Below are positions 1,453 through 30,830 of a DNA stretch of 64,000 bases, piece by piece (positions within the stretch are counted from its first letter, which is position 1; the number at the start of each line of letters is the position of its first letter). The stretch lies in assembly GCF_000243135.2 (NCBI RefSeq), contig NC_019903.1, positions 1,402,001 to 1,466,000 on the forward strand. Reading direction: 5' to 3'. The position numbers and the translations under genes were made by a program. A model generated the notes under the pieces. The model did not search any database and had not been told where the DNA came from. It was given only the letters and a program-made list of their open reading frames with translations. The DNA comes from Desulfitobacterium dichloroeliminans LMG P-21439. Lineage in GTDB: Bacteria; Bacillota; Desulfitobacteriia; Desulfitobacteriales; Desulfitobacteriaceae.

Positions 1453-2685
1453 TTACCAGGAACGATAGCTACCTTGATTCGAATCATGATTTGAAGGGGA
1501 ATCTTGCCAGGAGTTCATAGGCTGGGAAGATTGATACTTTTGGTCATGTTCTGTATCAGAATTCCAGTTTCTTCCTTGGGTATCGTCCAAAGCGTTGGAA
1601 TGCGGCATCTGGCTCTGTTGAGGAGGATTTTGAGGGGAATTTTGAGGCCTGGATGGGGGTGTGTTCATGTTCGTAGTGGGAGGTGCGCTCATATTCATTG
1701 ATGACGAATTCTCTGAATGATCTGGAGCACTCGATGGCTTGTTCATATTCATAGATGGTGGTTTGTTTGGATTGCTCGGTCCCATCATCGATTGATTTTG
1801 CGGATTCCCGCCCTTTGAATTCCACGTCGGTTTCCACGGTTCGGAGCGGTCTTGGTTGTGGGTTTCATTGTTCATGGATTGCTGTGGTAACTTGATTTCA
1901 ATGCTTTCATTGGGGAAAAGGTCCGTTACATTGGTTTTGACGTCAGATAACGCTTTTTGCAGATTACCGCTTTGGATTGCATCAGGATGAAGGTCAATTC
2001 CTCTTTCTTGGCAGCGTTCATAAATCAGGTGACTATTTACCGACATACCATGATCGAGGGCTTTTTCACGGATTTTTTCATCCGATTGACCAACCACTAA
2101 GTTTCCTTGGAGATTGAGGCGTGACATTTCATTTTGGATCGACGTCTTTAGTACTTCACTATCGAGATTGCTATTCATCCATTTAGATAAGGGGATGAGT
2201 CGAGCGAGAACAAGGTTTTCGTTCGACTTTAAATTACCCTCTTTTGCAGCATTTTCAATGATGAGATCGATCGCTTGGTAAGCATCTTTCCCTTCGAGAG
2301 TTTGGTTATCAGGAATAGAAGTCCCACCGCTCATATCGCGCACTTCGATAACTTTTCCGTCATTATTCACAAGAAGTTCGATGCTCTGATCCTTATCCCC
2401 TCGATCCATATCCAGTGCAACCGATGCAACAGCCATGTTTGGAAGGGCAAAAACATAAAACGCTGTGAGACTCATCCCAAGCAATAATGCGGCTGCTGAT
2501 GCCGTATATTTCCACCAAGAACGATTCGGCAGCCCAGATCGCTTGGGTTTTAGATTAACTTCGATCGTATCCCCGATTTTCGGGGGAATGTTAGGTGTTG
2601 GAATTTCCAGAAAATCCCCCTTTTCAGTTAGGATGACCATCATTTTTGTGGAGATCCTCATAACCATTCCTAAATTCTTTTTCAT
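1453..2685 (-). CDS. rsgI: Anti-sigma-I factor RsgI-like membrane protein
   Basis: This 410-residue protein has the RsgI layout. A short cytoplasmic N-terminal domain (about 1-55, with MVILTEKGDFLEIP) would bind SigI. One membrane helix follows at about 59-82, then an extracytoplasmic domain. The C-terminal 140 residues are low-complexity, rich in Asn, Pro, Met, Ser and Gln, and end in Trp. It starts 12 bp after the sigI stop, so the two are co-transcribed. In characterised RsgI proteins the outer domain senses an external cue and controls release of SigI; here the outer domain carries no recognisable carbohydrate-binding module. Its Gln/Asn-rich tail resembles the small secreted proteins encoded just downstream of sigI. 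Confidence 0.88.
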   Translation of the reverse strand: MKKNLGMVMRISTKMMVILTEKGDFLEIPTPNIPPKIGDTIEVNLKPKRSGLPNRSWWKYTASAAALLLGMSLTAFYVFALPNMAVASVALDMDRGDKDQSIELLVNNDGKVIEVRDMSGGTSIPDNQTLEGKDAYQAIDLIIENAAKEGNLKSNENLVLARLIPLSKWMNSNLDSEVLKTSIQNEMSRLNLQGNLVVGQSDEKIREKALDHGMSVNSHLIYERCQERGIDLHPDAIQSGNLQKALSDVKTNVTDLFPNESIEIKLPQQSMNNETHNQDRSEPWKPTWNSKGGNPQNQSMMGPSNPNKPPSMNMNKPSSAPDHSENSSSMNMSAPPTTNMNTPPSRPQNSPQNPPQQSQMPHSNALDDTQGRNWNSDTEHDQKYQSSQPMNSWQDSPSNHDSNQGSYRSW

Positions 2686-2697: not shown

Positions 2698-3429
2698 TTA
2701 CTCTGTAAGTTCTGTAGTGATTTCGAGAAAGGTTTTAAGAGCATAAAATTCGGATTCGGAAAGAATCAAAGCGAGAGCGATGATATATTTTCTGCCTTTC
2801 TCTAGGACCTTGCGTTTGACCCGAGTTAAAAGTTCAAGCTCTTTCATCGGAAGGAGCTTTTGTTTTTTGAGTTGGGCAAGTAAGTGGGGGTAGTTAACCA
2901 AAGTCAGAGTCACACGAATGAGCGTCTCTTTACTGTCCCGATGTTTTGGAGAAACCTTCACCAGGTCATCTAAGGTTACGCCGTATTCGTTGAGAACCCG
3001 GACATAATTCTCGATAACCTCAGCAAATTGCATCTTCTTTTGTTCTTCTTGATACTGCTCTTGGGAGAGATTCATATCATAGCGACTCAGTTCCTCATCC
3101 TCGGGATTCATCGGGGATAAAGAAAGATGTTGATGCTTCCCTTCTTTACGAAAGTAATCCACAAGTCTTCGATGAATGACGGTTTGGGCAAAACTAAGAA
3201 ATTCCGCGCCGCCTTGAGGATTAAAGTGGTCAATGGCTTCATTAAAAGCCAACAGGGCAATGCTCAGTTCATCATCGTTATCCCACGTTAAATAGCGGTT
3301 GCAAATTTTTGAACTCACCTTCGCAATAAAGGGCTTATAGGATTGGATAAGTTCTTCCCGAGCGAGAGTATCGCCTTGTTGAGCTGAGACGAGGTTTTCT
3401 TTGAAAGGCAGACCTTGCATCTTTATCAC
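2698..3429 (-). CDS. sigI: RNA polymerase sigma factor SigI
   Basis: This 243-residue protein has a sigma-70 region 2 (about 45-110, around WDNDDELSIALLAFNEAIDHF and YFRKE) and a divergent C-terminal region typical of SigI rather than of ECF factors. The ATG has a GGAG ribosome site 8 bp upstream. The gene leads the sigI-rsgI operon. SigI factors respond to heat or envelope/polysaccharide cues in Bacillus and Clostridium; the stimulus here is unknown. The promoter carries the 11-bp repeat array described separately. Confidence 0.9.
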   Translation of the reverse strand: MIKMQGLPFKENLVSAQQGDTLAREELIQSYKPFIAKVSSKICNRYLTWDNDDELSIALLAFNEAIDHFNPQGGAEFLSFAQTVIHRRLVDYFRKEGKHQHLSLSPMNPEDEELSRYDMNLSQEQYQEEQKKMQFAEVIENYVRVLNEYGVTLDDLVKVSPKHRDSKETLIRVTLTLVNYPHLLAQLKKQKLLPMKELELLTRVKRKVLEKGRKYIIALALILSESEFYALKTFLEITTELTE

Positions 3430-3494
3430 TCCGCTTATTATTCATTCGTAAAGCTAAAAGAGGTTTTGAGGGGTAGCTTTAGAAATCAAAGTCC

Positions 3495-3549
3495 ATTATA
3501 AGTTTTCAATGTCACAGAACTGTCACATTTCTTAGGATTTTTTGTTACA
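3495..3549 (-). promoter_or_regulatory. sigI promoter with 11-bp direct repeats
   Basis: Read on the minus strand, TGTAACA (starting at 3549), a degenerate ATCCTAA (3538), TGTGACA (3527) and TGTGACA (3516) are spaced exactly 11 bp apart. A TATAAT -10 starts at 3500, 16 bp after the last repeat start. There is no separate -35. The layout matches activation by an OmpR/PhoB-family regulator. A weaker ACCCC...CGAA pair near 3445-3474 could be a SigI autoregulatory promoter. Confidence 0.6.
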
Positions 3550-3732
3550 TAAGGTTTCGGCTGAAGATCTGAGAATTTTAAATCCCAACTCTAAATACAA
3601 AATGTAGTTGTTAAAAAATGAACTAATTTTCACATAAAAATCACAAAGAGTTTAAACAAATGAGATAATAATGTGATACTCATCCATTAGAATCAAGGTC
3701 GAAACGAGGAAATGTAAAGGAGTCGTTGATAT

Positions 3733-4078
3733 ATGCAGAAAAACTACGAAAAGGAAAAAATCTTACGAAGAATTAAGATCATTCGCGGACAGCTTAGTGC
3801 AATCGAAAGAATGATTGAAGAGGAGAAGACACCTGAGGAAATCCTCCCCCCAGCTAACGGCTGTTCGTTCCGCGATTCATCATGTTTCAGTTCTGGAAAC
3901 TCAGGACTATGTACAAAATGAAATCGATAAATCTATAGAACAAGGAGGAGAACAAAACGAAGTCTACGAGGCTATCGAAAAATTATTGGATTTAAATAAA
4001 AATGCTCTATTTTTTGCAGGCGATTTGATACCGGCTAAAACCCCCGATTCAGAATGGGTACTCACTAAGCACGCATAG
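3733..4078 (+). pseudogene. CsoR/FrmR-family regulator, frameshifted in a C tract
   Basis: The first frame gives an N-terminal CsoR-like helix (RRIKIIRGQLSAIERMIEEE). The second gives the rest (PQLTAVRSAIHHVSVLETQ and a helical tail). They join across a run of six C at 3846-3851; five C would restore one reading frame of about 114 residues. Compared with the CsoR family, the three metal ligands (Cys, His, Cys) align with Pro, Tyr and Glu, so even the repaired protein should not bind Cu(I) in the usual way. A good AAAGGAG ribosome site precedes the ATG. It may be a sequencing error, a phase-variable tract or a real pseudogene. Confidence 0.72.
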
Positions 4079-4218
4079 AGATTAATTGGTCAGATCGGGA
4101 TTGTGCTCTTCGTTTCGAATGGCTTAAAAACAGAATATGTCCTTCTTGGCTGAGCATTTTGAAGGTAATTTGTGGAATTCGGAGATCGATCAATAAAGTT
4201 TAAGAAAGGATGTAACTA

Positions 4219-4341
4219 ATGATTTATCTTTCCATTATTGCAACAATCGTGTCATTCTTTGCTTTTCTGGGGTTAGTTTTTACTATGATCCTTGGCACAA
4301 GTCTTTGGGGGATCAAGAAAGTTTATAAATCATTCAATTGA
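4219..4341 (+). CDS. Small single-span membrane protein, 40 aa
   Basis: A 40-residue reading frame with an AAGAAAGGA ribosome site 8 bp upstream. Residues 2-33 are almost wholly hydrophobic (MIYLSIIATIVSFF...), followed by a short basic tail (KKVYKSFN), which suggests an inner-membrane peptide with the tail in the cytoplasm. The function is unknown. It lies downstream of the broken CsoR-like gene. Confidence 0.5.
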   Translation: MIYLSIIATIVSFFAFLGLVFTMILGTSLWGIKKVYKSFN

Positions 4342-4667
4342 AATCTAAATCTAAATTAAGTGGTATCGGAATTTATACAGTGTAGCTTCGCCATTAAATT
4401 TTATAGATTAAGAGTTTAGAGTCTAAATAGATTGAAAAGTTGGAAAAAAAGTTAATAAAATTTTCTAAGAGCCACCCCCTAAAATGTCAAAAGGGTTTGC
4501 GAATGACTTCGTGAAAAGAGAGGTGGTCCTGAAAAAAGCTTCGAGCAATGTTCATTTGCAAGAACTGAAGGTAGAATTCAGAGTACATCATACTCGAAAC
4601 ATCAAACTAAATTGAAAGTAAAACTCGAGAAGAAATGTATTAAAGCAAAATCAGAAAAGTAATATTA
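4342..4667. other. Intergenic stretch without a gene
   Basis: About 325 AT-rich bases between the small membrane protein and the first copy of the duplicated secreted-protein gene. I see no open frame with a ribosome site, no clear terminator and no 11-bp repeat array. Confidence 0.5.
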
Positions 4668-4686
4668 GAAAGGAAGATATTTGATC

Positions 4687-5316
4687 ATGAAAAACTTAAA
4701 AAATTCTCTTTTAGTCAGTGCGTTATCTTTAGGAATTGTCATGGGAGGCGTAGGGATTGCCAGTGCGGCGACTTCCACGGATTATTCACAACGAATCGCG
4801 GATTGGATTAAAAATGACCCCAATCCAATGGTCATGAACATGAATTCAACCGTTCCTACCTCAGCAGCCCCGACGGGTGCAACACTGGTTGATTCCAGCA
4901 GCGCAAGCTCCAGTAACTCCACTCAGGCGACTCCGAATAACACTCAGCAGCCGACAACACAGCCCGCAGTTCAACCGTCTCCACAGCAATTCACATCCGC
5001 TCAAGTTGCTCCCCAAAAACCGGCCGCAGAACAAACAGCCCCCCAATCGGTGACTCTGCGTCAACCTGTCGTCTCAGGAGCGAACATGAGTCAAAGCGAT
5101 TTGTATAATCAGATGGTGAATAACTGCATCGAGTGGGATCAACAAATGATGCAGCAATATGCAAACCCGCAAAACCGAGCGGCTATGCAACAACAATGGC
5201 AAAATCGAGTCCAACCCTCTCACAACGTCCAAAAATCGAATCCTAATTGGAATTCCAACTATGGTTCGAATGGCAATCGAATGTCCGAGAATGGGTCCGG
5301 CAGTATGGGTTGGTAA
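4687..5316 (+). CDS. Secreted Gln/Asn/Pro-rich protein, copy 1
   Basis: A signal peptide (residues 1-28, ending GIASAA) precedes a mature part of about 180 residues. The mature part has a low-complexity Ser/Thr/Gln/Pro stretch (about 45-120), then an Asn/Gln/Met-rich tail ending NGSGSMGW. I know no domain in it. I chose the ATG at 4687; a TTG at 4681 is an alternative. The tail resembles that of RsgI, so a cell-surface or spore-envelope matrix role is conceivable, but this is inference. Its near-identical paralogue is at 6441, from which it differs at four residues (Glu/Ala, Leu/Pro, His/Gln, Glu/Gly). Confidence 0.8.
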   Translation: MKNLKNSLLVSALSLGIVMGGVGIASAATSTDYSQRIADWIKNDPNPMVMNMNSTVPTSAAPTGATLVDSSSASSSNSTQATPNNTQQPTTQPAVQPSPQQFTSAQVAPQKPAAEQTAPQSVTLRQPVVSGANMSQSDLYNQMVNNCIEWDQQMMQQYANPQNRAAMQQQWQNRVQPSHNVQKSNPNWNSNYGSNGNRMSENGSGSMGW

Positions 5317-5332
5317 GATGCATAAATTTGAA

Positions 5333-5362
5333 GCGACAGGGAGATAGGCCCTGTCGCTTTTA
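5333..5362 (+). terminator. Rho-independent terminator
   Basis: GCGACAGGG pairs with CCCTGTCGC around a short loop and is followed by TTTTATC. It is part of the duplicated unit. Confidence 0.88.
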
Positions 5363-5461
5363 TCATTTTAGATGGATTTTTGGGTTTATGGGATCTAAAG
5401 GTCTTATAGCAAAGAATTTTTAATAAAGATTTTCATTCCCACGCATCAAATATAACAAAAA

Positions 5462-5505
5462 GTTTATACAATCGTGATTCTGCTGTTAAATATATTCTCT
5501 ATAAT
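5462..5505 (+). promoter_or_regulatory. Promoter with degenerate 11-bp repeats
   Basis: CGTGATT (5473) and TGTTAAA (5484) are 11 bp apart, with a weaker GTTTATA at 5462. TATAAT starts at 5500, exactly 16 bp after the last repeat. It points to the 21-residue ORF and the XRE gene. Confidence 0.5.
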
Positions 5506-5597
5506 CCGTTATGTAAGGACTTGAGTGGTCTCTGATTTTACAAAGAAATGCTTTGCATAAAAATCTAAAGTGTTGAAATCAAATTGGAGGAAAAACG

Positions 5598-5663
5598 ATG
5601 CGAATTTTATTAAGCGTACTTCTTGGATGGGAAAATCTTATCTACCTTATCAGCAAAAAGTAA
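5598..5663 (+). CDS. Possible 21-aa leader peptide
   Basis: MRILLSVLLGWENLIYLISK plus a final Lys, behind a strong TTGGAGG ribosome site. It lies between the 5500 promoter and the XRE gene. It could be a small membrane-active or leader peptide; it is too short to classify. Confidence 0.4.
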   Translation: MRILLSVLLGWENLIYLISKK

Positions 5664-5729
5664 AAGAATAACTTTCTCTATAACTTAATCGCAAGGTTCT
5701 CAAATATTTAAGGAAAGGAGGATGGTAGG

Positions 5730-6164
5730 ATGAAAAAGGCTCAAGCCATCCTGAATAATGAATTGCAACTCTTAAGTCAGTTTGGTCAATATCTATATCA
5801 GTTACGGGCCCAACGAAGTCTTTCCTTAATCAAATTGGGGGTCCGTTTAGGGATCAATGCCTCGTATCTCTCTGAACTAGAGCGGGGTCTGAAAATGCCT
5901 CAGGATGAATTAGTTTCACGCATTGCCGCTTTTTTTGGACTGGATGAAAACGGACTTTTTGAGATGTTAGGGAAGGTTCCTTTAAGTGTGCGCCAGGAAA
6001 TTGAGCAGAATCTTTTACTGCAAACGACATTGAAAGAAATGAGTGAGTCTCAGTTTTCGCGGCAAAGGAAACAAGAACTTTATGGAGAGTTTTATAATTT
6101 GGTTAAACGTACTAAAAACAATTTAAGAGCTACCCCTCTAAATGCTGTAAAGGTTGTCGAATGA
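5730..6164 (+). CDS. XRE-family transcriptional regulator
   Basis: This 144-residue protein has a Cro/CI-type helix-turn-helix at about residues 17-75 (SLIKLGVRLGINASYLSELERG, then a DELVSRIAAFFGLDE segment). A helical C-terminal tail probably mediates dimerisation. The AGGAGG site is well placed. It sits between the two copies of the duplicated secreted-protein gene and may regulate them, though no operator is evident. Confidence 0.85.
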   Translation: MKKAQAILNNELQLLSQFGQYLYQLRAQRSLSLIKLGVRLGINASYLSELERGLKMPQDELVSRIAAFFGLDENGLFEMLGKVPLSVRQEIEQNLLLQTTLKEMSESQFSRQRKQELYGEFYNLVKRTKNNLRATPLNAVKVVE

Positions 6165-6207
6165 TTATATGAAACCGAGAGAGGCTTAGAAAGGAGGAGT
6201 GTGCCAC

Positions 6208-6405
6208 ATGTGTGCCAGTGGAATTGTTATTTTTCCGAAGTCAAATCAATTTAGCGTTCGGACTAATAAAACAAACTTGAACAATGGTGGGGTCTTATCT
6301 CATTCTTTTTACATCGGTCTTAGAAATTTGGATCGAAAAATCTTAATGTCCCGATTAACACCACGTGTGTTGAATACAAAGAACCTTCAACGTTTCACAC
6401 TTTAA
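6208..6405 (+). CDS. Hypothetical protein, 65 aa
   Basis: A short frame with a strong AAGGAGGAG site 10 bp before the ATG at 6208 (a GTG at 6199 overlaps the site and is less likely). The product begins MCASGIVIFPKS and is moderately basic. I do not recognise it. It ends just upstream of the second copy of the duplication. Confidence 0.4.
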   Translation: MCASGIVIFPKSNQFSVRTNKTNLNNGGVLSHSFYIGLRNLDRKILMSRLTPRVLNTKNLQRFTL

Positions 6406-6440
6406 TCTAAAAATATTTAATGAAAGGAAGATATTTGATC

Positions 6441-7070
6441 ATGAAAAACTTAAAAAATTCTCTTTTAGTCAGTGCGTTATCTTTAGGAATTGTCATGGGA
6501 GGCGTAGGGATTGCCAGTGCGGCGACTTCCACGGATTATTCACAACGAATCGCGGATTGGATTAAAAATGACCCCAATCCAATGGTCATGAACATGAATT
6601 CAACCGTTCCTACCTCAGCAGCCCCGACGGGTGCAACACTGGTTGATTCCAGCAGCGCAAGCTCCAGTAACTCCACTCAGGCGACTCCGAATAACACTCA
6701 GCAGCCGACAACACAGCCCGCAGTTCAACCGTCTCCACAGCAATTCACATCCGCTCAAGTTGCTCCCCAAAAACCGGCCGCAGCACAAACAGCCCCCCAA
6801 TCGGTGACTCCGCGTCAACCTGTCGTCTCAGGAGCGAACATGAGTCAAAGCGATTTGTATAATCAGATGGTGAATAACTGCATCGAGTGGGATCAACAAA
6901 TGATGCAGCAATATGCAAACCCGCAAAACCGAGCGGCTATGCAACAACAATGGCAAAATCGAGTCCAACCCTCTCAAAACGTCCAAAAATCGAATCCTAA
7001 TTGGAATTCCAACTATGGTTCGAATGGCAATCGAATGTCCGGGAATGGGTCCGGCAGTATGGGTTGGTAA
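6441..7070 (+). CDS. Secreted Gln/Asn/Pro-rich protein, copy 2
   Basis: Same length and signal peptide as the copy at 4687. The four differences to copy 1 all change amino acids, and no silent difference was found. An in-frame ATG at 6420 would extend the protein by seven residues but overlaps the ribosome site, so the ATG at 6441 is preferred. It is exported and has unknown function. The first copy has RMSENG near its end where this one has RMSGNG. Confidence 0.8.
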   Translation: MKNLKNSLLVSALSLGIVMGGVGIASAATSTDYSQRIADWIKNDPNPMVMNMNSTVPTSAAPTGATLVDSSSASSSNSTQATPNNTQQPTTQPAVQPSPQQFTSAQVAPQKPAAAQTAPQSVTPRQPVVSGANMSQSDLYNQMVNNCIEWDQQMMQQYANPQNRAAMQQQWQNRVQPSQNVQKSNPNWNSNYGSNGNRMSGNGSGSMGW

Positions 7071-7086
7071 GATGCATAAATTTGAA

Positions 7087-7116
7087 GCGACAGGGAGATA
7101 GGCCCTGTCGCTTTTA
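7087..7116 (+). terminator. Rho-independent terminator (duplicate)
   Basis: The same GCGACAGGG/CCCTGTCGC hairpin with a T tract as at 5333. Confidence 0.88.
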
Positions 7117-7234
7117 TCGAATCAATCACTCTTTAAATTGAAATCAAACTTTTCAGGGAATTAATTACGAACTTAATTTATGAGTAGACCGATTCAATAA
7201 GAATTGTTTAAGAGGAATTACTGGAGAGGAGTTA

Positions 7235-7510
7235 TTAAGGAATCCATAGTTTTTGCCCGGGATAGATTCTATTGGGATTACTAAGACTATTCGCGTGTAT
7301 TATCGACTGCATACTCGTGCCATATTTCCGAGAAATATTATAAATAGTATCCCCGCGATTCACAGTATAAGTGCGGGTTGGCGCTTTATATTGTTGTGAC
7401 ATCTTCGACGTGCTTGGAACATAATCCTGACGTTGCGTTTGCCAGCGATCCTGCATACCGTACATATCGTGCACGCCTTGCATGGCCTGCATACCCCGCA
7501 TTCCGTACAT
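7235..7510 (-). CDS. LysM-domain protein, 91 aa
   Basis: The C-terminal half (about 47-91) is one LysM domain: YTVNRGDTIYNISRKYG... ending PGQKLWIP. LysM binds N-acetylglucosamine in peptidoglycan or spore cortex. The N-terminal half is rich in Met, Gly, Gln and Tyr and has no signal peptide. That combination is common in spore-coat or cortex-associated proteins made in the mother cell, so a sporulation role is plausible. GGAGGG lies before the ATG at 7510; the upstream GTG at 7525 overlaps this site. Confidence 0.82.
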   Translation of the reverse strand: MYGMRGMQAMQGVHDMYGMQDRWQTQRQDYVPSTSKMSQQYKAPTRTYTVNRGDTIYNISRKYGTSMQSIIHANSLSNPNRIYPGQKLWIP

Positions 7511-7673
7511 TCTCTTTCCCTCCACTTTTTACAACAGTTAGCGTATTACCATTATATAGAATATGTTTTTTTTTGTGTTTGTACACTACGCATTTTTGGA
7601 AAATATTTCATATTGCATCAGTAGTGTATGACCAATCCTTAACCTTAATGACTAGCTAGCAATATTACAAAAA

Positions 7674-7717
7674 TGTTAAAATTCTGTAACGTGAATGTGT
7701 CGAGTGAATTTTATAAT
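7674..7717 (+). promoter_or_regulatory. Promoter with three 11-bp repeats
   Basis: TGTTAAA (7674), TGTAACG (7685) and TGTGTCG (7696) are spaced 11 bp. TATAAT starts at 7712, 16 bp after the last repeat. A degenerate TATTACA lies one more period upstream at 7663. It drives the secreted protein at 7752. Confidence 0.65.
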
Positions 7718-7751
7718 AGAGTTAACTTAATGAGAACAGGAGGATATAAAA

Positions 7752-8075
7752 ATGAAAAGTATGAAAAAGTTTATAGCCGTATTTTTGGGAGCAGCCGTAT
7801 TGACAGTTGGCTTATCAGCTGCAAAAGTTAATGCTGCACCGCTATCACCACAGAATTATTGGGTGGCACAACAAGCGGATCAAAATCAAACGGTGCCAAA
7901 CACTCAGCCATCGGTACAGCAGGGTTCAGCCTATTACCCTAACTATGGCAATGGGTACAATTACATGAACCCAGGGTATCGATGGAATAATGGGTGGTGG
8001 AATAATTCCGGAAATGCCCGTTGGAGCGGTTATAATGGTTGGGGCATGGGTCAGTCCGGCTGGTGGTGCTGGTAA
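7752..8075 (+). CDS. Small secreted Trp/Asn/Gly-rich protein
   Basis: This 107-residue product has a signal peptide (about 1-28, ending KVNAAP). The short mature protein is rich in Asn, Tyr, Trp and Gly (YYPNYGNGYNYMNPGYRWNN) and ends GWWCW. AGGAGG lies 8 bp upstream. I recognise no domain. The composition recalls the other small exported proteins in this region. The gene is followed after 31 bp by the SHOCT-type membrane protein and is probably co-transcribed with it. Confidence 0.75.
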   Translation: MKSMKKFIAVFLGAAVLTVGLSAAKVNAAPLSPQNYWVAQQADQNQTVPNTQPSVQQGSAYYPNYGNGYNYMNPGYRWNNGWWNNSGNARWSGYNGWGMGQSGWWCW

Positions 8076-8106
8076 CAAAAAGTCGTCATGGAGAGGGGCT
8101 AAGGTC

Positions 8107-8367
8107 ATGTTTGGAGGTTGGGGATGTAGTCCATTTTGGGGTGAAGGATTCTGGGGGATTGGATTACTTGGAATGAGTATAAATTTAATTTTCTGGATTC
8201 TTCTAGTTGCCCTGATTGTTTACTTATTCCGTAAACTCGGTACAGGTTTTCGTAAACCAGCGTTTGCAGGTCGCGATGATGCATTGAGTATTCTTCGTGA
8301 ACGCTTTGCAAGAGGGGAGATCGATAGCGAAGAATACGAGCGGCGCAAACAGGATCTACACAGATAA
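8107..8367 (+). CDS. Membrane protein with C-terminal SHOCT motif
   Basis: This 86-residue protein has a Gly/Trp-rich N-terminus (MFGGWGCSPFWGEGFWGIG), one membrane helix (about 24-43) and a C-terminal SHOCT-like motif (ILRERFARGEIDSEEYERRKQDL). SHOCT motifs are short oligomerisation modules often found at protein ends. I chose the ATG at 8107, since the longer upstream frame overlaps the secreted protein gene. It is probably an envelope-stress-type accessory protein. A terminator follows. Confidence 0.8.
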   Translation: MFGGWGCSPFWGEGFWGIGLLGMSINLIFWILLVALIVYLFRKLGTGFRKPAFAGRDDALSILRERFARGEIDSEEYERRKQDLHR

Positions 8368-8371
8368 AGTC

Positions 8372-8414
8372 AAAGCTAGGTGAGAGTCGTATTGAGACCC
8401 GCCTAGCTTTTTTA
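8372..8414 (+). terminator. Rho-independent terminator
   Basis: AAAGCTAGGTG pairs with CGCCTAGCTTT and is followed by TTTT. It ends the 7752-8367 operon. Confidence 0.88.
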
Positions 8415-8489
8415 ATCGTGCGGGATCCATTCAACACAAATTTCACTAAAGCGATTCTCGTCATTTCTTGTCATTTCTTTTCAAAAAAA

Positions 8490-8533
8490 TGTTAAACACC
8501 TGTTAAAATCCTGTGACTTAGCTAGGGTAACAT
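8490..8533 (+). promoter_or_regulatory. Promoter with three 11-bp repeats
   Basis: TGTTAAA (8490), TGTTAAA (8501) and TGTGACT (8512) lie at 11-bp steps. The TAACAT -10 candidate starts at 8528, again 16 bp after the last repeat. It is upstream of the AhpD-like gene. Confidence 0.6.
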
Positions 8534-8593
8534 ATTCTTATGGGAATCAATCAAAAATCTATACAAAAATTTTTTCTTGGGAGGAATACGCAA

Positions 8594-8968
8594 ATGCCGA
8601 ATGTTGAATTATTATCTGAAGATAGTGTAAGTCCTGAGGTTCAGGAAATTTTCGCTCAATTAAAAGAAAAGCATGGAGAAATCCCCGCACCCTTCCGAGC
8701 GATGGCTCATCATCCTAAATATTTGAAGCTTGTCTTAAACAAGATGGAAACCGTGATGGGGTCAGATGTGCTTGATCTTCCAACTAAGTTAGCGATTGCC
8801 TTTGCTGTTTCTACATTAAATAAATGCGATTTTTGCATTAGTATGTATGCAAAACAGCTGCACGGGGTAGGTTTTACAGAGCAACAACTCATCGAGATTC
8901 TCGCAGTAATCGATTTTGTTACAGCCATGAACCATTTTAATAATGGGATGTTAGTAAAGCCAGAATAA
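8594..8968 (+). CDS. AhpD-like carboxymuconolactone decarboxylase-family protein
   Basis: A 124-residue all-helical protein with the family's redox motif: Cys78-Asp-Phe-Cys81 followed by His90. In AhpD proteins this pair reduces peroxides or a partner peroxiredoxin. GGGAGG precedes the ATG at 8594, which I prefer to the upstream ATG at 8540. Its promoter carries the 11-bp repeats. A role in peroxide or redox defence is likely for this anaerobe; the electron donor is not evident. Confidence 0.83.
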   Translation: MPNVELLSEDSVSPEVQEIFAQLKEKHGEIPAPFRAMAHHPKYLKLVLNKMETVMGSDVLDLPTKLAIAFAVSTLNKCDFCISMYAKQLHGVGFTEQQLIEILAVIDFVTAMNHFNNGMLVKPE

Positions 8969-9112
8969 TTGATTGGATATATACGGCAGGTGGTCAAAGT
9001 TTCCAGCCGTTTTAAATGTTTATAACGAGTATGTTATACCCGTGAGGCCTGTTAAGCATATCAAAATCACAACAGTGTAAATGAAAAAGCAAACGATAAG
9101 GAGAGAAGGTCT

Positions 9113-9265
9113 ATGGCACAAGTTACCATTACCTTGCGGATGATAATGGCTTCCATTCTTCTAGGAATTATTTCAATTTACACTGCGAATGGTCTAAATG
9201 TTTGGTTATGGCTTTTGTTCCTCATCGTATTTACAGGATATCCTCCTCTTTACACGAATTTTTGA
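9113..9265 (+). CDS. Small membrane protein resembling DUF2892, 50 aa
   Basis: A 50-residue protein with two hydrophobic stretches (MIMASILLGIISI and VWLWLLFLIVFTGY) and an ending TGYPPLYTNF. This resembles the GxCPLY end of YgaP-type DUF2892 proteins with Pro in place of Cys. A GGAGAGAAGG site precedes the ATG. A longer overlapping frame to 9446 has no such support. Confidence 0.5.
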   Translation: MAQVTITLRMIMASILLGIISIYTANGLNVWLWLLFLIVFTGYPPLYTNF

Positions 9266-9463
9266 ATTCTGGATAGTAGTCCCTTCCTTTATCTCTGGGA
9301 AGTTGTGGGTTTTGACCGTTGGATCTAATCAGAACACAATGGGGGGATTGGTAATCGCTATAAGCTTTTTCTTTTTCTTTTTCGCAGAACTAAAGAGAAA
9401 GAACAGCCTAGCGGTAAGTGGAAGAAAGAGTGTAGATGAGGTATGAAGAATTTCATATGATCT

Positions 9464-9504
9464 TAAATTTAAGAGTATCTGAGAAGGTACTCTTAAATTT
9501 TTTT
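9464..9504 (+). terminator. Rho-independent terminator
   Basis: AAATTTAAGAGTATC pairs with GGTACTCTTAAATTT (one G-T) and is followed by a T tract. Confidence 0.85.
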
Positions 9505-9509
9505 ATCAA

Positions 9510-9564
9510 TGTCACAGAAATGTTAAGAACCTGTGACATTTTTGTTACGTCAGTACAGTAAAAT
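9510..9564 (+). promoter_or_regulatory. feo promoter with four 11-bp repeats
   Basis: TGTCACA (9510), TGTTAAG (9521), TGTGACA (9532) and TGTTACG (9543) lie at exact 11-bp steps. TAAAAT starts at 9559, 16 bp after the last one. It is the most complete array in the window and lies directly upstream of the Fur box. Confidence 0.65.
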
Positions 9565-9573: not shown

Positions 9574-9592
9574 ATAAATGATAATCATTATC
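9574..9592 (+). promoter_or_regulatory. Fur box
   Basis: ATAAATGATAATCATTATC matches the 19-bp Fur consensus at 16 positions. The last 13 bases, GATAATCATTATC, match perfectly. It overlaps the expected transcription start of the feo operon, so iron-loaded Fur should repress it. Confidence 0.85.
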
Positions 9593-9610
9593 AAAGAAGG
9601 AGTGAATTCG

Positions 9611-10207
9611 ATGGAATGCTGCAGTGCAAAACAACCTTGGTATAAAAAACTGTCGTCTGCATTTTTAGGGACCGGGAATTGTCATGGAGAAGTCAGCCAA
9701 GAGACGCAGGGGCTAGAAAAGATTGCTTTAGTCGGGAGTCCGAATGTCGGGAAAAGTGTTTTGTTTAATATACTGACCGGAGCATACGTGACTGTTTCCA
9801 ATTATCCCGGAACCACGGTTGAGGTGTCGCGTGGTAAAGGAAAAATAGAGGCGAAGGAATATGAAATTATCGATACACCCGGAATGTACTCCTTGTTATG
9901 CATTACGGAGGAGGAAAAAGTGACGCGGGATCTGCTCCTTCGTGAGAAGCCTAAGGCTGTGGTTCATGTGGTCGATGCGAAAAACCTTCAGAGAATGTTA
10001 CCGCTCACCGTTCAAATGATCGAGGGGGGTGTCCCCGTTCTCTTGGTCTTAAATATCATGGATGAGGCAGAAAGTTTGGGACTAAAAATTGATGTCAAGA
10101 AGTTAGAGGCAGAGCTTGGGATCCCTGTTTTGTCTACGGTTGCAGCGCTCAATAAGGGAATAGAAGGATTAAAGGAAAGAGTGAGTGAATATGTCCAAGC
10201 GGCTTGA
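9611..10207 (+). CDS. feoB: Ferrous iron transport FeoB, GTPase part (split gene)
   Basis: 198 residues hold only the cytoplasmic G domain of FeoB: G1 GSPNVGKS at 42-49, switch I YPGTT around 65-69, G3 DTPG at 88-91 and G4 NIMD at 148-151, then a helical end. The N-terminus has a Cys-Cys pair. The AAGAAGGAG site supports the ATG at 9611. The membrane half is a separate overlapping gene, so the transporter is assembled from two polypeptides. It provides GTP-dependent Fe(II) uptake control at the inner membrane. Confidence 0.93.
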   Translation: MECCSAKQPWYKKLSSAFLGTGNCHGEVSQETQGLEKIALVGSPNVGKSVLFNILTGAYVTVSNYPGTTVEVSRGKGKIEAKEYEIIDTPGMYSLLCITEEEKVTRDLLLREKPKAVVHVVDAKNLQRMLPLTVQMIEGGVPVLLVLNIMDEAESLGLKIDVKKLEAELGIPVLSTVAALNKGIEGLKERVSEYVQAA

Positions 10208-11642
10208 AGTAACTTATGATCAAACGATTGAAGCGGCAATCGGGGAAATAATGAACAGCTTACAGAGTCAATATGTTCTTTCCAAACGGGCCATTGCCTT
10301 GCTCCTCTTACAAGAGGATGAGGATATCTTAGGAATGGTAAAAGAGAAGGAGAAAAACCAATACTTTAAGATTTCTCAGATTATCGAGGAGACAAAACAA
10401 GCCTATAACCGGCCATTGAATTACATCATTTCCTTGTCGCGGCAAAAGAAGGTCGATGCCATCGCCGAAAAAGCGATGACAAAGGTTCAAGGGAAAGAAA
10501 ATCGTGTTGCCGATTTCTTAAGCCGACTAACCATGAATCCTTTAACGGGGGTACCTATATTGCTGTTGGTTCTCTATTATGGACTCTATAAGTTCGTTGG
10601 AGAATTTGGGGCGGGGACCGTTGTAGACTTTCTCGAAGAGCATGTTTTTGGAGTTTATATCAATCCTTTGGTTAATGGAGTCGTGCAAACGTATATCCCT
10701 TGGACATGGTTGCAAGATTTATTAGCGAACGATTACGGAATTATCACCCTCGGAATTCGTTATGCGGTAGCCATTATTCTTCCTATCGTCGGGACCTTTT
10801 TCTTGATGTTTTCGATCATCGAAGATAGTGGTTACTTACCGAGACTGGCCATGCTGGTTGATCGGGTCTTTAAGAAGATCGGATTAAATGGAAGAGCGGT
10901 TATTCCCATGACTTTGGGGTTCGGCTGTGATACGATGGCCACGATGGTAAGTCGGACGTTAGAAACGAAACGTGAAAGAGTCATTGCTACATTACTTTTA
11001 GCTTTGGCTATTCCTTGCTCGGCGCAACTCGGTGTCATCTTGGCTTTATTATCGAGTGCTCCGGGAGCTTTAGGGGTTTGGCTTGGATTTGTCGGATTGA
11101 TCTTTTTACTCATAGGGTATCTCACGACCAAAATTCTTCCCGGGGATAAACCGAGTTTTTATATGGAAGTTCCCCCTTTGCGACTTCCCAAATTATCCAA
11201 TGTGCTGACCAAAACCTATACGCGGATGCAATGGTACTTCGTAGAAATCGTTCCTTTGTTTATCCTAGCCAGCATTTTGATTTGGTTCGGTAATCTGACT
11301 GGATTATTTGGAGTCGTTATTGGCTGGATGCAGCCGGTCGTAAACTTTATCGGCTTACCAGACAAGGCAGCAGAGGCTTTCCTTTTTGGTTTCTTTAGAC
11401 GAGATTATGGGGCAGCCGGACTCTATGACCTCCAACAAGCCGGGGTATTATCTCCTCGACAATTGGTCGTTGCCGCTGCAACCTTGACCTTGTTTGTACC
11501 GTGTATCGCCCAGTTCTCTATGATGTTAAAAGAAAGAGGGGTTAAAACGGCACTCGCAATTGCTGGTTTTATCTTCCCGTTTGCTTTCATTGCCGGTTTC
11601 GTTTTAAACTGGGTACTCCTAACGCTTAAGGTGTTGCCATGA
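10191..11642 (+). CDS. feoB: Ferrous iron transport FeoB, membrane part (split gene)
   Basis: About 483 residues: a soluble helical start (1-95), which corresponds to the end of the NFeoB region, followed by the polytopic FeoB channel. The conserved gate segments are present: GYLPRLAMLVDRVFKKIGLNG and the inverted repeat around the second Cys (LALAIPCSAQL), with GFGCDTMA where many FeoB proteins have GFGCNVPA. The start is the ATG at 10191 or the GTG at 10185. Both overlap the G-domain gene (stop at 10205-10207), so the two are translationally coupled. Split FeoB is not the usual form. Confidence 0.92.
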   Translation: MSKRLEVTYDQTIEAAIGEIMNSLQSQYVLSKRAIALLLLQEDEDILGMVKEKEKNQYFKISQIIEETKQAYNRPLNYIISLSRQKKVDAIAEKAMTKVQGKENRVADFLSRLTMNPLTGVPILLLVLYYGLYKFVGEFGAGTVVDFLEEHVFGVYINPLVNGVVQTYIPWTWLQDLLANDYGIITLGIRYAVAIILPIVGTFFLMFSIIEDSGYLPRLAMLVDRVFKKIGLNGRAVIPMTLGFGCDTMATMVSRTLETKRERVIATLLLALAIPCSAQLGVILALLSSAPGALGVWLGFVGLIFLLIGYLTTKILPGDKPSFYMEVPPLRLPKLSNVLTKTYTRMQWYFVEIVPLFILASILIWFGNLTGLFGVVIGWMQPVVNFIGLPDKAAEAFLFGFFRRDYGAAGLYDLQQAGVLSPRQLVVAAATLTLFVPCIAQFSMMLKERGVKTALAIAGFIFPFAFIAGFVLNWVLLTLKVLP

Positions 11643-27099: not shown

Positions 27100-28669
27100 G
27101 ATAGAGTACAATTAAGTTCGCAAAAGTAAAAAAGGAAAAGCCATCGGTAACTCCGAAAAGGTAAGTGCTGAAGCAAACCAAAAAGGAGTTGTTAACCGAT
27201 GGCTTACCCAAATTCTACCGTACCTTTTGAAAAAATGCTAATGAAATTTGTAACCGAAGAAGATCCCATGCAGGCTATGTTAAAATGGCTCTGCGAAAGG
27301 CTGATGGAAGCAGAAGTGGATGCAAAGCTAGGTGCTGAAAAATCAGAACGGTCTACTGAACGTCAAGGGTATCGATCAGGCTATCGCGTTCGCCGTTTCG
27401 ATACCCGGATGGGGACACTGTATTTAATGGTACCCAAACTGCGAAATGGCGGCTATATCCCTTTCTTTGTGGAAGGTAAGAAACGTTCTGAATTGGCCTT
27501 GATGAATGTGATTCAAGAAGCCTATGTTAATGGCGTATCCACCCGTAAAATAGAGAAACTCACTAAGTCCTTAGGCATTGACTCCATGTCACGAAGTCAG
27601 GTATCAAGCATCGCTAAAGAACTGAACGAACAGGTTGAAGCCTTTCGTAATCGAAGTCTCGATAAAGTCTATCCCGTACTCTGGGTGGATGCTCTCTATG
27701 AGAAAATCCGAGATGATCGAAGGGTCAAAAATATGGCAGTGCTGATTGTAACGGGTATTGATCTAGAAGGCAAACGAGATATTCTGGCCGTAGAGCCCAT
27801 GCCAGAAGAGTCCACAGCAACCTACACCAGTCTCTTCGAAAAGTTAAAGTCACGAGGACTAGAGAAAGTCTGGCTGGTTGTCTCAGATGCCCATAAAGGG
27901 TTAGTTAAAGCTGTTCAAGAGTCCTTTATCGGGTGTTCCTGGCAACGCTGTAAAGTGCATTTTATGCGGAACATCCTCGCTCATATATCCGGTCGAGATA
28001 AGCAAGCGTTTGCTAATAAACTAAAGCAAATCTGGCTTCAACCAGACTATAGCAGTGCAAAGAAATACGCTAATTCTCTGATGGATGAGTTTGAGGCCAA
28101 ATATCCTGAAGCCATTAAAACTCTGGAAGAAGGGTTGGAAGACTCACTACAGTTTTTCAGCTTTGCAGAGATTGATTCAAGAAAGATCGCGTCAACCAAC
28201 CTGCTGGAAAGACTCAACCGAGAAGTACGTAGAAGAACCCGGGTGGTTGGGATATTCCCAAGTATGGATTCCTATATTCGGCTAGTAACCAGCTACCTTA
28301 TTGAGTATAGCGAAGACTGGTGCAGTGGCCGATCCTATATCAATCCAAAAATCATCACTTCGATTGAGCAGGAACGTTCAAAAGCTGCGTAAGCCTTAAT
28401 CATTAATTCAGAAAAGCATGACGCTCGGCGCTAGCCAAGCAAACTCTCTTTGATTTAGGGTTACTCTTTGGGGTGAAAGAGACTTTGCCGTCTTCAAGCG
28501 TTTTGGTAGGGTGCACGTGTCAATGGGATGATGCCGAGCATATCCTCGGCCTGACGGCCTCCGGTATCCCTCGCATCACCCTTGACACTCTTCCCAACTT
28601 ACGCTTTTACATAAAACATTTAGCCTTAAGGGGTTCTGATGGTTTTTGCGAACATTTCTTGACACTATC
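27100..28669 (+). mobile_element. IS256-family element, copy 1 (1570 bp)
   Basis: Its ends are imperfect inverted repeats: GATAGAGTAC...TTCGCAAAA on the left, and the complement of TTTTGCGAA...GACACTATC on the right. It is base-for-base the same as 37506-39075 as far as I can read. It contains one transposase gene and about 275 bp of 3' noncoding sequence. Confidence 0.93.
27199..28392 (+). CDS. IS256-family (mutator-type) transposase
   Basis: 397 residues with the family's DDE residues in context: Asp in PVLWVDALYEKI, Asp in VVSDAHKGLV (before CSWQRCKVHFMRN) and Glu in ASTNLLERLNREVRRR. An AAAAGGAG site precedes the ATG. It is intact and identical to the copy at 37605. It should catalyse transposition of the single IS and of the composite unit. 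Confidence 0.96.
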   Translation: MAYPNSTVPFEKMLMKFVTEEDPMQAMLKWLCERLMEAEVDAKLGAEKSERSTERQGYRSGYRVRRFDTRMGTLYLMVPKLRNGGYIPFFVEGKKRSELALMNVIQEAYVNGVSTRKIEKLTKSLGIDSMSRSQVSSIAKELNEQVEAFRNRSLDKVYPVLWVDALYEKIRDDRRVKNMAVLIVTGIDLEGKRDILAVEPMPEESTATYTSLFEKLKSRGLEKVWLVVSDAHKGLVKAVQESFIGCSWQRCKVHFMRNILAHISGRDKQAFANKLKQIWLQPDYSSAKKYANSLMDEFEAKYPEAIKTLEEGLEDSLQFFSFAEIDSRKIASTNLLERLNREVRRRTRVVGIFPSMDSYIRLVTSYLIEYSEDWCSGRSYINPKIITSIEQERSKAA

Positions 28670-28688
28670 AATAGAATAGTTTTATAAT
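28659..28688 (+). promoter_or_regulatory. Hybrid IS-end promoter of rdhA
   Basis: TTGACA (28659-28664) lies inside the right inverted repeat of the IS. TATAAT (28683-28688) lies in the flanking DNA, with an 18-bp spacer. Transcription would start about 40 bp before the rdhA ATG. The second IS copy has the same TTGACA but no TATAAT outside. Confidence 0.75.
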
Positions 28689-28730
28689 AATTTAAAGGAC
28701 ATGCAATTATTATAAAGGAGGAAGATTGGA

Positions 28731-30386
28731 ATGGGCGAAATCAACAGGAGGAATTTTTTAAAAGCCTCGATGCTTGGAGCAGCTGCAGCTGCTGTAGCCT
28801 CGGCATCTGTGGTGAAGGGGATGGTTAGCCCCTTGGTGGCTGATGCTGCGGACATCGTGGCTCCGATCACGGAAACCTCAGAATTTCCATACAAGGTGGA
28901 TGCAAAGTACCAGCGTTACAATTGTATGAAGAACTTCTTTGAAAAGACTTTCGATCCGGAAGCAAACAAGACTCCTATTAAGTTTCATAACGACGATGTT
29001 TCCAAAATCACAGGCAAGAAAGATACGGGGAAAGACCTGCCCACGCTTAATGCGGAAAGACTTGGGATCAAAGGGCGTCCGGCGACACATTCAGAAACAG
29101 GCGTTCTTTTCTTTGGTCAGCATACGGGTGTCATGCCACACCAGCGCAGTAAAGAAACAGGCAATACCTTGTTGGATGACGCCTTGCAAGCCGGAGTCTG
29201 GGCTGTAGAATTTGATTTTCACGGATTTAACGCAACAGATAATGGTCCGGGAACTGTAATCACGCCTTATCCCATAAATCCTATGACCAATGAAATAGCT
29301 AATGAGCCTGTCATGGTACCCGGTTTGTACAACTGGGACAATATCGATGTTGAAAGTGTGCGACAACAAGGCAAACAGTGGAAATTCAAATCAAAGGAAG
29401 AAGCCAGTAAAATGGTTAAAAAGGCAGCCTGTTTCCTGGGAGCCGATCTGGTCGGCATCGCACCCTATGACGAGCGTTGGACCTATTCTACCTGGGGCAG
29501 GAAGATTCCAAAACCTTGTAAAATGCCCAACGGCAGAACCAAATTAATGCCATGGGATTTGCCAAAGGTGCTGTCAGGCGGGGGAGTAGAAGTTTTCGGA
29601 CATGAAAAATTTGAACCTGATTGGGAGAAGTATGCAGGTTTCAAACCAAAAAGTGTGATTGTCTTCGTTCTTGAAGAGGATTACGAAGCTTTGCGCACCT
29701 CACCGTCAGTCATTGCCAATGCCGCGACGGGGAAAGTTTACTCCAGTATGGGAGGAGTATCTTACAAAATCGCGGTTTTTCTGAGGAAGCTTGGCTATTA
29801 TGCAGCGCCGTCAGGAAACAATACCGGATTGAATGTTCCTATGGCCGTTCAGGCCGGGCTTGGAGAAGCAGGCAGAAACGGACTTTTAATTACCCAGAAA
29901 TTCGGTCCGAGACATCGCATCTCCAAAGTCTACACCGACCTGGAACTTGCTCCGGACAAGCCGAGAAAATTCGGGGTACGCGAGTTCTGCCGCCTGTGCA
30001 AAAAATGTGCGGATGCCTGCCCCGCCCAGGCCATCTCCCATGAGAAAGACCCTAAGGTTCTGCAGCCAGGGGATTGTGAGGAATCCGAAAATCCATATAC
30101 TGAAAAATGGCATGTTGATTCCAACCGTTGCGGCTCTTTCTGGGCCTATAACGGTGGTCTCTGCGCAAATTGTGTAGCTGTATGTTCGTTTAACAAAATC
30201 GAGACCTGGAACCACGATGTGGCCAGAATAGCCACTCGAATACCATTGCTTCAGGATGCAGCCCGCAAGTTTGATGAATGGTTCGGCTATAGCGGGCCTG
30301 TAAACCCTGATGAAAGACTTGAATCGGGTTATGTTCAGAACATGGTCAAAGACTTCTGGAATAATCCTGAGTCTATAAAACAATAG
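28731..30386 (+). CDS. dcaA: Reductive dehalogenase catalytic subunit (DcaA/PceA type)
   Basis: 551 residues. A Tat signal (RRNFLK at 6-11, hydrophobic stretch, cleavage probably before residue 40) directs the folded enzyme outward. The C-terminal part has two Fe-S motifs, CRLCKKCADACP and CANCVAVCSFNK with an upstream Cys; a corrinoid completes the active site. It terminates organohalide respiration at the outer face of the membrane. It closely resembles PceA of D. hafniense except for a divergent block about residues 120-170 (GVLFFGQHTGVMPHQRSKE) and scattered changes. That pattern is the one described for DcaA, the 1,2-dichloroethane enzyme. The symbol is from memory; pceA-like is the alternative. 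Confidence 0.9.
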   Translation: MGEINRRNFLKASMLGAAAAAVASASVVKGMVSPLVADAADIVAPITETSEFPYKVDAKYQRYNCMKNFFEKTFDPEANKTPIKFHNDDVSKITGKKDTGKDLPTLNAERLGIKGRPATHSETGVLFFGQHTGVMPHQRSKETGNTLLDDALQAGVWAVEFDFHGFNATDNGPGTVITPYPINPMTNEIANEPVMVPGLYNWDNIDVESVRQQGKQWKFKSKEEASKMVKKAACFLGADLVGIAPYDERWTYSTWGRKIPKPCKMPNGRTKLMPWDLPKVLSGGGVEVFGHEKFEPDWEKYAGFKPKSVIVFVLEEDYEALRTSPSVIANAATGKVYSSMGGVSYKIAVFLRKLGYYAAPSGNNTGLNVPMAVQAGLGEAGRNGLLITQKFGPRHRISKVYTDLELAPDKPRKFGVREFCRLCKKCADACPAQAISHEKDPKVLQPGDCEESENPYTEKWHVDSNRCGSFWAYNGGLCANCVAVCSFNKIETWNHDVARIATRIPLLQDAARKFDEWFGYSGPVNPDERLESGYVQNMVKDFWNNPESIKQ

Positions 30387-30448
30387 TGATTTCAATGTCA
30401 AATATATTAATCATAAGGAGAAAATTATTATAAGGAGTGAAAGGTATT

Positions 30449-30766
30449 ATGAATATATATGATGTGCTGATTTGGATGGCACTGGGTATGATTGCATTGC
30501 TTATCCAATACGGAATCTGGCGGTATCTGAAAGGGAAGGGCAAAGATACCATACCTCTTCAAATCTGCGGGTTCCTCGCCAACTTTTTCTTTATATTTGC
30601 TTTGGCCTGGGGATATTCCAGCTTTTCGGAGCGTGAATACCAAGCTATTGGCATGGGATTTATCTTCTTCGGAGGCACGGCACTTATTCCTGCGATTATT
30701 ACTTACAGGCTGGCTAACCATCCGGCAAAAAAAATCAGAGAAAGTTCGGATTCTATTTCTGCTTAG
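30449..30766 (+). CDS. dcaB: Reductive dehalogenase membrane anchor RdhB
   Basis: 105 residues with three hydrophobic spans (VLIWMALGMIALLIQYGIW, LQICGFLANFFFIFALAWG and GMGFIFFGGTALIPAIITY). This is the usual size and topology of RdhB/PceB proteins, which hold the catalytic subunit at the membrane. The ATG at 30449 lies 62 bp after the rdhA stop and is preferred to an ATG four codons upstream. It is almost unchanged from PceB as I recall it, in contrast to the A subunit. Confidence 0.92.
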   Translation: MNIYDVLIWMALGMIALLIQYGIWRYLKGKGKDTIPLQICGFLANFFFIFALAWGYSSFSEREYQAIGMGFIFFGGTALIPAIITYRLANHPAKKIRESSDSISA

Positions 30767-30798
30767 CAATTAGAGTATCAAGCCATAGGGTTAATGAG

Positions 30799-30830
30799 GC
30801 CAGTAAGTGTCTCTTCAGATACTTACTGGC
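30799..30830 (+). other. Intercistronic hairpin between rdhB and rdhC
   Basis: GCCAGTAAGT pairs perfectly with ACTTACTGGC around a 12-base loop. There is no immediate T run; an ATTTTTTAAG stretch lies 20 bp on. It could attenuate transcription or protect the AB message from decay. Confidence 0.65.

Follow-up and report, generated by a model that had tools for sequence, protein, structure and literature searches.

At the pho promoters of Escherichia coli the last heptamer of the regulator site lies 16 bp upstream of the -10 element, and the sensor kinase WalK carries a cytoplasmic PAS domain between HAMP and HisKA. The PHO boxes bound by PhoB or PhoP are described as direct repeats of 11 nt, with seven conserved and four less conserved bases (PMC4415409), and the Staphylococcus aureus WalR motif is given as TGTHH-N6-WGTNDD, with an 11-bp period (PMC10746227). 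In Bacillus subtilis, lytE is reported to have a SigI promoter together with a WalR-dependent SigA promoter (PMC7299342), and the sigma-I consensus of the Bacillales is reported as ACCCCC--AA-15N-CGAA (PMC4711584). Here we analyse a 64,000-nucleotide stretch of Desulfitobacterium dichloroeliminans LMG P-21439 (the window; positions 1402001-1466000 of NC_019903.1, a single contig of 3,624,449 bases), in which five promoters combine 11-bp repeats with a -10 element at the distance found in pho promoters. We consider it likely from sequence comparison that these repeats are the predicted sites of a dedicated, unnamed local OmpR/PhoB-type regulator that works with a PAS/Cache kinase, and that sigma-I forms a second tier of the same circuit. 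No description of such a circuit was found in those parts of the open-licence literature that were consulted.

The five promoters are as follows.

3495..3549, minus strand: regulator box (units 1, 3 and 4; no unit 2) and -10, upstream of sigI-rsgI; TGTAACA (3549), a gap, TGTGACA (3527), TGTGACA (3516), then TATAAT (3500-3495); the same layout occurs at the paralogous sigI of locus L008 and at L036, L038 and L048
5451..5505, plus strand: regulator box of degenerate units and -10 TATAAT; a single good heptamer (TGTTAAA, the last unit, at 5484), yet recovered as a four-unit site with three mismatches; followed by a 21-aa frame at 5598 and an HTH gene
7663..7717, plus strand: regulator box and -10 TATAAT; TGTTAAA (7674), TGTAACG (7685), TGTGTCG (7696)
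8479..8533, plus strand: regulator box and -10 TAACAT; TGTTAAA (8490), TGTTAAA (8501), TGTGACT (8512)
9510..9564, plus strand: regulator box of four good units and -10 TAAAAT, upstream of feo; TGTCACA (9510), TGTTAAG (9521), TGTGACA (9532), TGTTACG (9543)

A preliminary description of this DNA had reported repeats at all five promoters, and each was found where it had been placed; the distance of 16 bp from the last repeat to the -10 holds exactly in five of five. The reported form, TGTnA-type heptamers at 11-bp steps, holds generally, with the exceptions that the 7696 unit falls outside TGTnA and that the sigI site lacks its second unit; the full box comprises four 11-bp units. Requiring a -10 at +16 and, in the last three units, no fewer than two perfect heptamers gave 33 sites in 16 loci, against 0.3 expected under a first-order Markov model. 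These loci are the window (four sites, the 5484 site not included), L007 and L008 of the same genome, and 13 loci of relatives, L037 being left out as a duplicate of L036.

A four-unit pattern, derived from sites chosen for a -10 at +16 and searched without the -10, occurs at 73 places in 12 of 45 genomes of the family, against 1 in the control. Removal of repeats of identical 60 bases left 65 distinct boxes, and 63 of them have TANNNT with at least four of six matches to TATAAT at exactly +16, the next offsets being 21 (17 boxes), 11 (12) and 18 (10). Because the pattern came from sites picked for this distance, 30 of the 65 boxes are not independent of it; the 35 boxes absent from the pattern-deriving loci place the -10 at +16 in 34 cases, followed by 21 (13), 11 (11) and 18 (9). 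The two boxes without a -10 at +16 (L120 and L148) are also poor as boxes. For positions that the search pattern specifies, conservation is built in, but beyond them it extends to the -10, to T at -4 (82%) and to A at +3 (74%), whereas position -1 is random.

A -35 element, likewise reported earlier as absent, was not found: no box (0/65) reaches five of six matches to TTGACA at a spacing of 15-19, but that level is reached by only 2% of random positions, and four of six is reached by 23% of boxes against 22% of random positions. This geometry is the layout predicted for a regulator that replaces the -35.

In the whole 3.62-Mb genome the four-unit pattern occurs at eight places, against none in the reversed control, and each of the eight has one of two regulator genes no more than 12.1 kb away.

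genome 1399442-1400125: OmpR/PhoB-type regulator gene, 1.9-2.6 kb left of the window edge
genome 1171821-1172501: paralogous regulator gene

Each box cluster is adjoined by such a regulator gene and a sensor kinase gene; the two regulators are 86% identical, and the left regulator-kinase pair ends 430 bases before the window starts. Because all eight boxes lie this close to the two genes, we are dealing with a local, duplicated locus and not with the genome-wide regulon envisaged in the preliminary description, whose interpretation is partly supported. In the genome scan the strict two-heptamer pattern shows a weak numerical excess (six places against three in the reversed control). Five of the six strict places fall within 13.3 kb (1398241-1411564), the sixth, at 1168325, lies upstream of the paralogous sigI, and none lies outside the two loci. 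A three-heptamer scan allowing up to two mismatches returned 27 places (11 in the two loci, 16 elsewhere), against 18 in the reversed control. By these sequence measures the repeated boxes are genuine promoter marks of a small, local gene set.

The left regulator has the domain layout of the OmpR/PhoB family, with a receiver (PF00072, 118.2 bits) and a Trans_reg_C domain (PF00486, 97.6 bits), and scores below the cut-off of each of the best 25 of 102 matched NCBIfam models, including MtrA (252.1 bits, cut-off 300), PhoB (TIGR02154; 245.3, cut-off 296.2), YycF (238, cut-off 340), BaeR (211.8, cut-off 380), cztR_silR_copR (199.8, cut-off 279.2) and CpxR (167.8, cut-off 341). The kinase reaches 295.4 bits against the WalK model, which has a cut-off of 725; it contains HAMP (190-241) and HisKA (254-318) domains, and Pfam gave no match to a cytoplasmic PAS at E up to 0.01. 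A full-length model of the kinase was poor (pLDDT 66.2) and its fold search was dominated by kinase cores, so the sensor domain was modelled alone (pLDDT 88.3); it is predicted to have a PAS/Cache fold. The first Foldseek row for this model is S. aureus WalK (4ywz_A, E 6.2e-5, TM 0.47), whereas in VIA the Z scores of PctD (12.5), CitA (11.9) and WalK (4ywz_B, 11.7; 3.4 A, 122 aligned residues) are nearly tied. PAS/Cache rows with many ligands are nearly tied in Z, and the modelled fold singles out none of these ligands.

Boxes and regulator tend to occur in the same genomes. Across the 45 family genomes an orthologue of the regulator is found in 11, and box and orthologue are both present in 10, the regulator alone in 1, the box alone in 2 and neither in 32; restricted to the 35 genomes that are at least 90% complete, the counts are 8, 1, 1 and 25. 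Eleven of the 16 regulator copies, spread over 8 of the 11 genomes, are preceded by a box at a distance of 79-808 bp. In the regulator-only genome (G034) the kinase frame is just 292 aa long near a contig end, and looser criteria revealed no box in the fetched stretch. Together with the -10 at +16 and the targets seen in relatives, this co-occurrence with one OmpR/PhoB-type regulator supports the earlier suggestion that an OmpR-family site takes the place of the -35.

Several points weigh against assigning the boxes to this regulator. The orthologue limit of 385 bits, which separates it from the next paralogues at 280 bits or less (at least one match in 39 of 45 genomes), was chosen after the gap had been seen, and in genomes with many regulators not all first-look candidates were scored. 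The Fisher p values of 2e-7 (45 genomes) and 3e-6 (35 genomes) are too small because the genomes share ancestry. Three genomes have boxes and no regulator orthologue: G023, rated 100% complete with 7% contamination, carries a single four-unit box, and L038, apparently a contig of G023, carries an RR-type box at sigI; G040 (78% complete) has eight boxes; and L229 of G057, a genome of another family, has a box at a feo remnant, sigI, and SHOCT- and exported-protein relatives. Conversely, 5 of the 16 regulator copies lack a box within 1.5 kb upstream, namely one at a contig end (G029), those of G034 and G008, and second copies in G014 and G024. At sigI the regulator box is present in just 5 of 16 loci, in the three-unit form, and 6 of the 65 boxes have no downstream frame while one has an open-ended frame. 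The L229 locus is itself a partial copy of the one described here, with SigI at 50%, the exported protein at 62% and the SHOCT protein at 81%, a 14-residue FeoB remnant behind the box and a DUF2680 protein that ends in Trp.

The circuit we propose starts from features that are present in the DNA: the boxes, their fixed distance to the -10, the co-occurrence with the regulator, the sigma-I type promoters and the Fur-like sites. An envelope signal, sensed through the extracytoplasmic PAS/Cache domain of the kinase, would lead to phosphorylation of the regulator, and regulator molecules would bind the four 11-bp units head to tail. With the last unit located where a -35 is expected, at 16 bp from the -10, the regulator would recruit sigma-A RNA polymerase much as PhoB does. 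It would act on the operon that encodes it, by positive feedback, on sigI-rsgI and on the genes for small exported proteins, the SHOCT protein, the AhpD-like protein and iron importers; sigma-I would add a second tier by acting on sigI-rsgI itself and on genes for further exported proteins. We infer that the regulator binds the boxes, that it activates rather than represses, that the signal comes from the envelope and that envelope protection is the purpose. Read in this way, a promoter pattern becomes a testable two-tier circuit with one regulator-kinase pair, one box of exact geometry, one sigma factor and few targets.

A box over the -35 region could serve repression too, which counts against activation: the last unit occupies the expected position of sigma region 4, and the regulator might act there as a repressor or set basal expression. 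We regard this as unlikely, because without a good -35 of their own the box promoters would be weak in the absence of an activator, and because an exact +16 distance in 63 of 65 boxes would be expected for polymerase contact and would be unneeded for repression. Similarity by common descent alone, among duplicated genes of a mobile, A+T-rich region and without function, would fit the many targets that are clustered paralogues and a locus that is duplicated in its own genome and absent from the three other genomes of the genus. This explanation is extremely improbable, however, as the boxes precede unrelated families (the two-component operon, FeoB, FTR1, RodA-type, VTT, VanW-like and CMD), conservation extends beyond the search pattern, and a box with a -10 is found at 0 of 19 DUF2680 genes outside the regulon.

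Activation by a dedicated regulator also has to be set against the known OmpR-type systems that it resembles. The PhoB/PhoP regulon shares the tandem 11-bp repeats, the position of the regulator over the -35 region and the 16-bp distance, and PhoB is the second-best NCBIfam family of the regulator. Yet it is very unlikely that the boxes are Pho boxes, as the units read differently, we saw no phosphate gene standing first behind a box, and the pstS locus of the same genome (L230, genome 1033005; identified by TIGR02136 at 215 bits, cut-off 206.6) shows no TGTnA array over 3.9 kb. That region and the PhoB cut-off leave unsupported the Pho-type regulator that the preliminary description proposed to test. 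Upstream of pstS we noticed by eye TTAACC-TAATC-TTTACA-ATAAG-TTAACC, likely a separate phosphate-type box. WalRK resembles the system in its TGT repeats of 11-bp period, its PAS/Cache sensor domain (the modelled domain resembles that of S. aureus WalK, and other PAS/Cache domains equally), its wall-related targets and, in B. subtilis, a target that it has in common with SigI, so that the boxes might be WalR sites and the regulon a branch of general wall homeostasis. We find this improbable: OmpR-type paralogues of 280 bits or less occur in 39 of the 45 genomes whereas four-unit boxes occur in 12, 10 of them with this orthologue, and the system is patchy (11/45 genomes) and local rather than global. 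WalR membership is rejected on both curated cut-offs, those for YycF and WalK, and WalRK is retained as a close analogue. The CpxAR and BaeSR envelope-stress pairs offer an analogy, in that a kinase and an OmpR-type regulator stand beside small exported proteins, but the regulator is below the CpxR and BaeR cut-offs, and the DUF2680 protein has no Pfam match to LTXXQ (CpxP/Spy) at E up to 0.01. The heavy-metal system CzcRS differs in that the regulator is below the cztR_silR_copR cut-off.

The genes that stand first behind a box are the regulator's own operon and genes for DUF2680 and other small exported proteins, SHOCT-like proteins, CMD/AhpD-like proteins and FeoB, joined in relatives by two FTR1 iron permeases, a RodA/FtsW-family protein, VTT (DedA), a VanW-like protein, a chemoreceptor and DUF1385. 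This bears out, targets in relatives included, the earlier view that the set joins envelope, redox (AhpD-like) and iron genes. The set also provides a regulatory setting, with links to iron import and to genes of the wall, for small exported families that either belong to DUF2680, which has no assigned function in Pfam, or are unmatched. The window contains the following genes and sites of this set.

4681..5316, plus strand: earlier of two nearly identical copies of a small exported protein, with the C-terminus GSMGW
5730..6164, plus strand: HTH (Xre-like) regulator (Pfam HTH_31, HTH_3)
6435..7070, plus strand: second exported protein copy, ends GSMGW
7752..8075, plus strand: small exported protein, ends SGWWCW
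8107..8367, plus strand: SHOCT membrane protein, next after 7752-8075 (Pfam SHOCT, 40.5 bits)
8594..8968, plus strand: carboxymuconolactone decarboxylase / AhpD-like protein (Pfam CMD, 45.9 bits)
9579..9593, plus strand: Fur-like palindrome TGATAATCATTATCA, between the -10 and feoB, zero mismatches
9611..10207, plus strand: FeoB, G-protein part (TIGR00437 profile positions 1-154, 199 bits)
10185..11642, plus strand: FeoB, membrane part (TIGR00437 profile positions 190-594, 251.7 bits)

Both FeoB halves are below the TIGR00437 cut-off of 315.65, which is set for the whole protein. Within 160 bases of all six iron-transport box promoters (four feo, two FTR1) there is a match of 16-17 of 19 positions to a Fur consensus, whereas the other 59 boxes reach at most 14 of 19; the iron genes therefore look gated by both the regulator and iron. 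In L119, L127, L143 and L147, genes with a SHOCT-like start (MFGGWG or MLGGWG, by eye) carry a box of their own, and the AhpD-like relative in L117 is likewise preceded by one. No Pfam match at E up to 0.01 was obtained for the exported proteins at 7752-8072, 4687-5313 and L007 15060-15353. A pattern search of the loci collected with the 21-aa frame at 5598 and a 40-aa frame at 4219 matched the window copies alone. The first exported gene is duplicated together with its start region (4655-4954 and 6409-6708 are 98% identical over 300 bases). Two short frames that overlap each other at 3733-4078 look, by eye, like pieces of a single box-controlled protein of 117 aa in L117, and they are possibly a frameshifted gene.

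The second tier of the proposed circuit comprises these features.

1453..2685, minus strand: rsgI, anti-sigma factor, C-terminal tail ends RSW (Pfam RsgI_N, 39.2 bits, cut-off 25; RsgI_M, 47.2 bits, cut-off 25.3)
2698..3429, minus strand: sigI, RNA polymerase sigma factor SigI (NCBIfam NF006175, 340.3 bits, cut-off 244)
3442..3474, minus strand: sigma-I type promoter ACCCC-N21-CGAATGA, second, downstream promoter of sigI, zero mismatches
4474..4506, plus strand: sigma-I type promoter of the exported protein gene 4681-5316, zero mismatches
6132..6164, plus strand: sigma-I type promoter for the second exported copy, overlapping the HTH gene at its 3' end, zero mismatches

Genome-wide, the pattern ACCCCNNWAAA-N15-CGAAWGA has six perfect matches; none falls outside the two loci, and they stand at two sigI genes and at four members of the GSMGW-type exported family. 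With up to two mismatches it returns 16 places (the 6 without mismatch and 10 with two), against 15 in the control. A similar element is found at 13 of the 16 sigI loci. The relatives that the SigI search named belong to Desulfosporosinus (13 loci) and Paradesulfitobacterium (one locus). As in the SigI-RsgI systems of Bacillales and cellulolytic clostridia, both families score over their cut-offs and an ACCCC ... CGAA promoter lies at sigI itself. The locus departs from those systems in the regulator box at 5 of 16 sigI loci, in an RsgI tail that ends in Trp at several loci, and in a promoter spacing one base longer than the Bacillales consensus as given in PMC4711584.

A further feature of the gene set, absent like the sigma-I promoters from the preliminary description, is a C-terminal tryptophan, which tracks the regulon more than it tracks protein family. 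Among small exported proteins encoded first behind a box the last residue is Trp in 22 of 30, Gln in 5 and Gly, His or Arg in 1 each, against a Trp end in 1 of 28 other such proteins; the split into these two groups relied on a hydrophobicity threshold and on a manually compiled list of starts to exclude, and 58 proteins were counted because six of the 65 boxes have no frame and one has an open frame. In 13 loci 25 of 228 distinct frames end in Trp (the loci were chosen for SigI, and this is not a genome-wide fraction; the gene finder misses some genes, window 7752-8075 among them), and by inspection all 25 encode exported proteins of regulon families or RsgI. A Trp end tends to recur in exported families that are unrelated to one another, namely DUF2680, two WCW-type families and the GSMGW family, and also in the RsgI tail; examples are window 1453-2685, 4681-5316, 6435-7070 and 7752-8075 and L007 14303-14665 and 15060-15356, whereas one protein behind a sigma-I promoter of the second locus (L008 7300-7977) ends in Arg. 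Outside the regulon, none of 19 DUF2680 proteins in five genomes (one a 28-aa fragment, with starts guessed) ends in Trp. Across the class, 30 DUF2680 loci gave a Trp end in 7 of 7 with box and regulator and in 3 of the 23 others (L201, L202 and L206), of which L206 is next to a box-bearing feo remnant.

On one reading the Trp end may be a recognition signal. More speculatively, the regulator-kinase pair and sigma-I might jointly control an envelope set with a new C-terminal Trp signal, read by a common extracytoplasmic receptor or protease for which exported proteins and RsgI compete, so that the state of the envelope is reported to sigma-I; we put this forward as a doubtful, though conceivable, extension. 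TGTNAC arrays also stand upstream of DUF2680 genes in genomes of family f4, mostly lacking a -10 at +16 and with no orthologue of this regulator. In more distant genomes such arrays occur at 11-bp steps near the DUF2680 genes of L193, L199, L201, L202, L204 and L205, again with no regulator orthologue, and one of them (L205) has TATAAT at +16.

Class-wide, the regulator occurs in 11 of 82 genomes, all of one family, and in one of the four genomes of the window's genus, a patchy distribution that suggests horizontal transfer of the locus. About 7 kb left of the two-component pair at L007 lies a gene for a conjugative coupling protein (T4SS-DNA_transf, 6683-8500), and the locus may have been acquired by transfer, given this neighbour. 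Between the two lie genes that by eye encode a CadA-like ATPase, an ArsR-like protein and a cation-efflux-like protein.

Elsewhere in the window, at 27199-38798, two mutator-type transposase genes (397 aa, equal Pfam scores) flank a probable reductive dehalogenase cluster. The cluster encodes a TAT/4Fe-4S protein (28731-30386; Dehalogenase model below cut-off), an FMN/4Fe-4S protein (30874-32160) and a trigger-factor-like protein (32282-33238), and the whole segment looks like a composite transposon.

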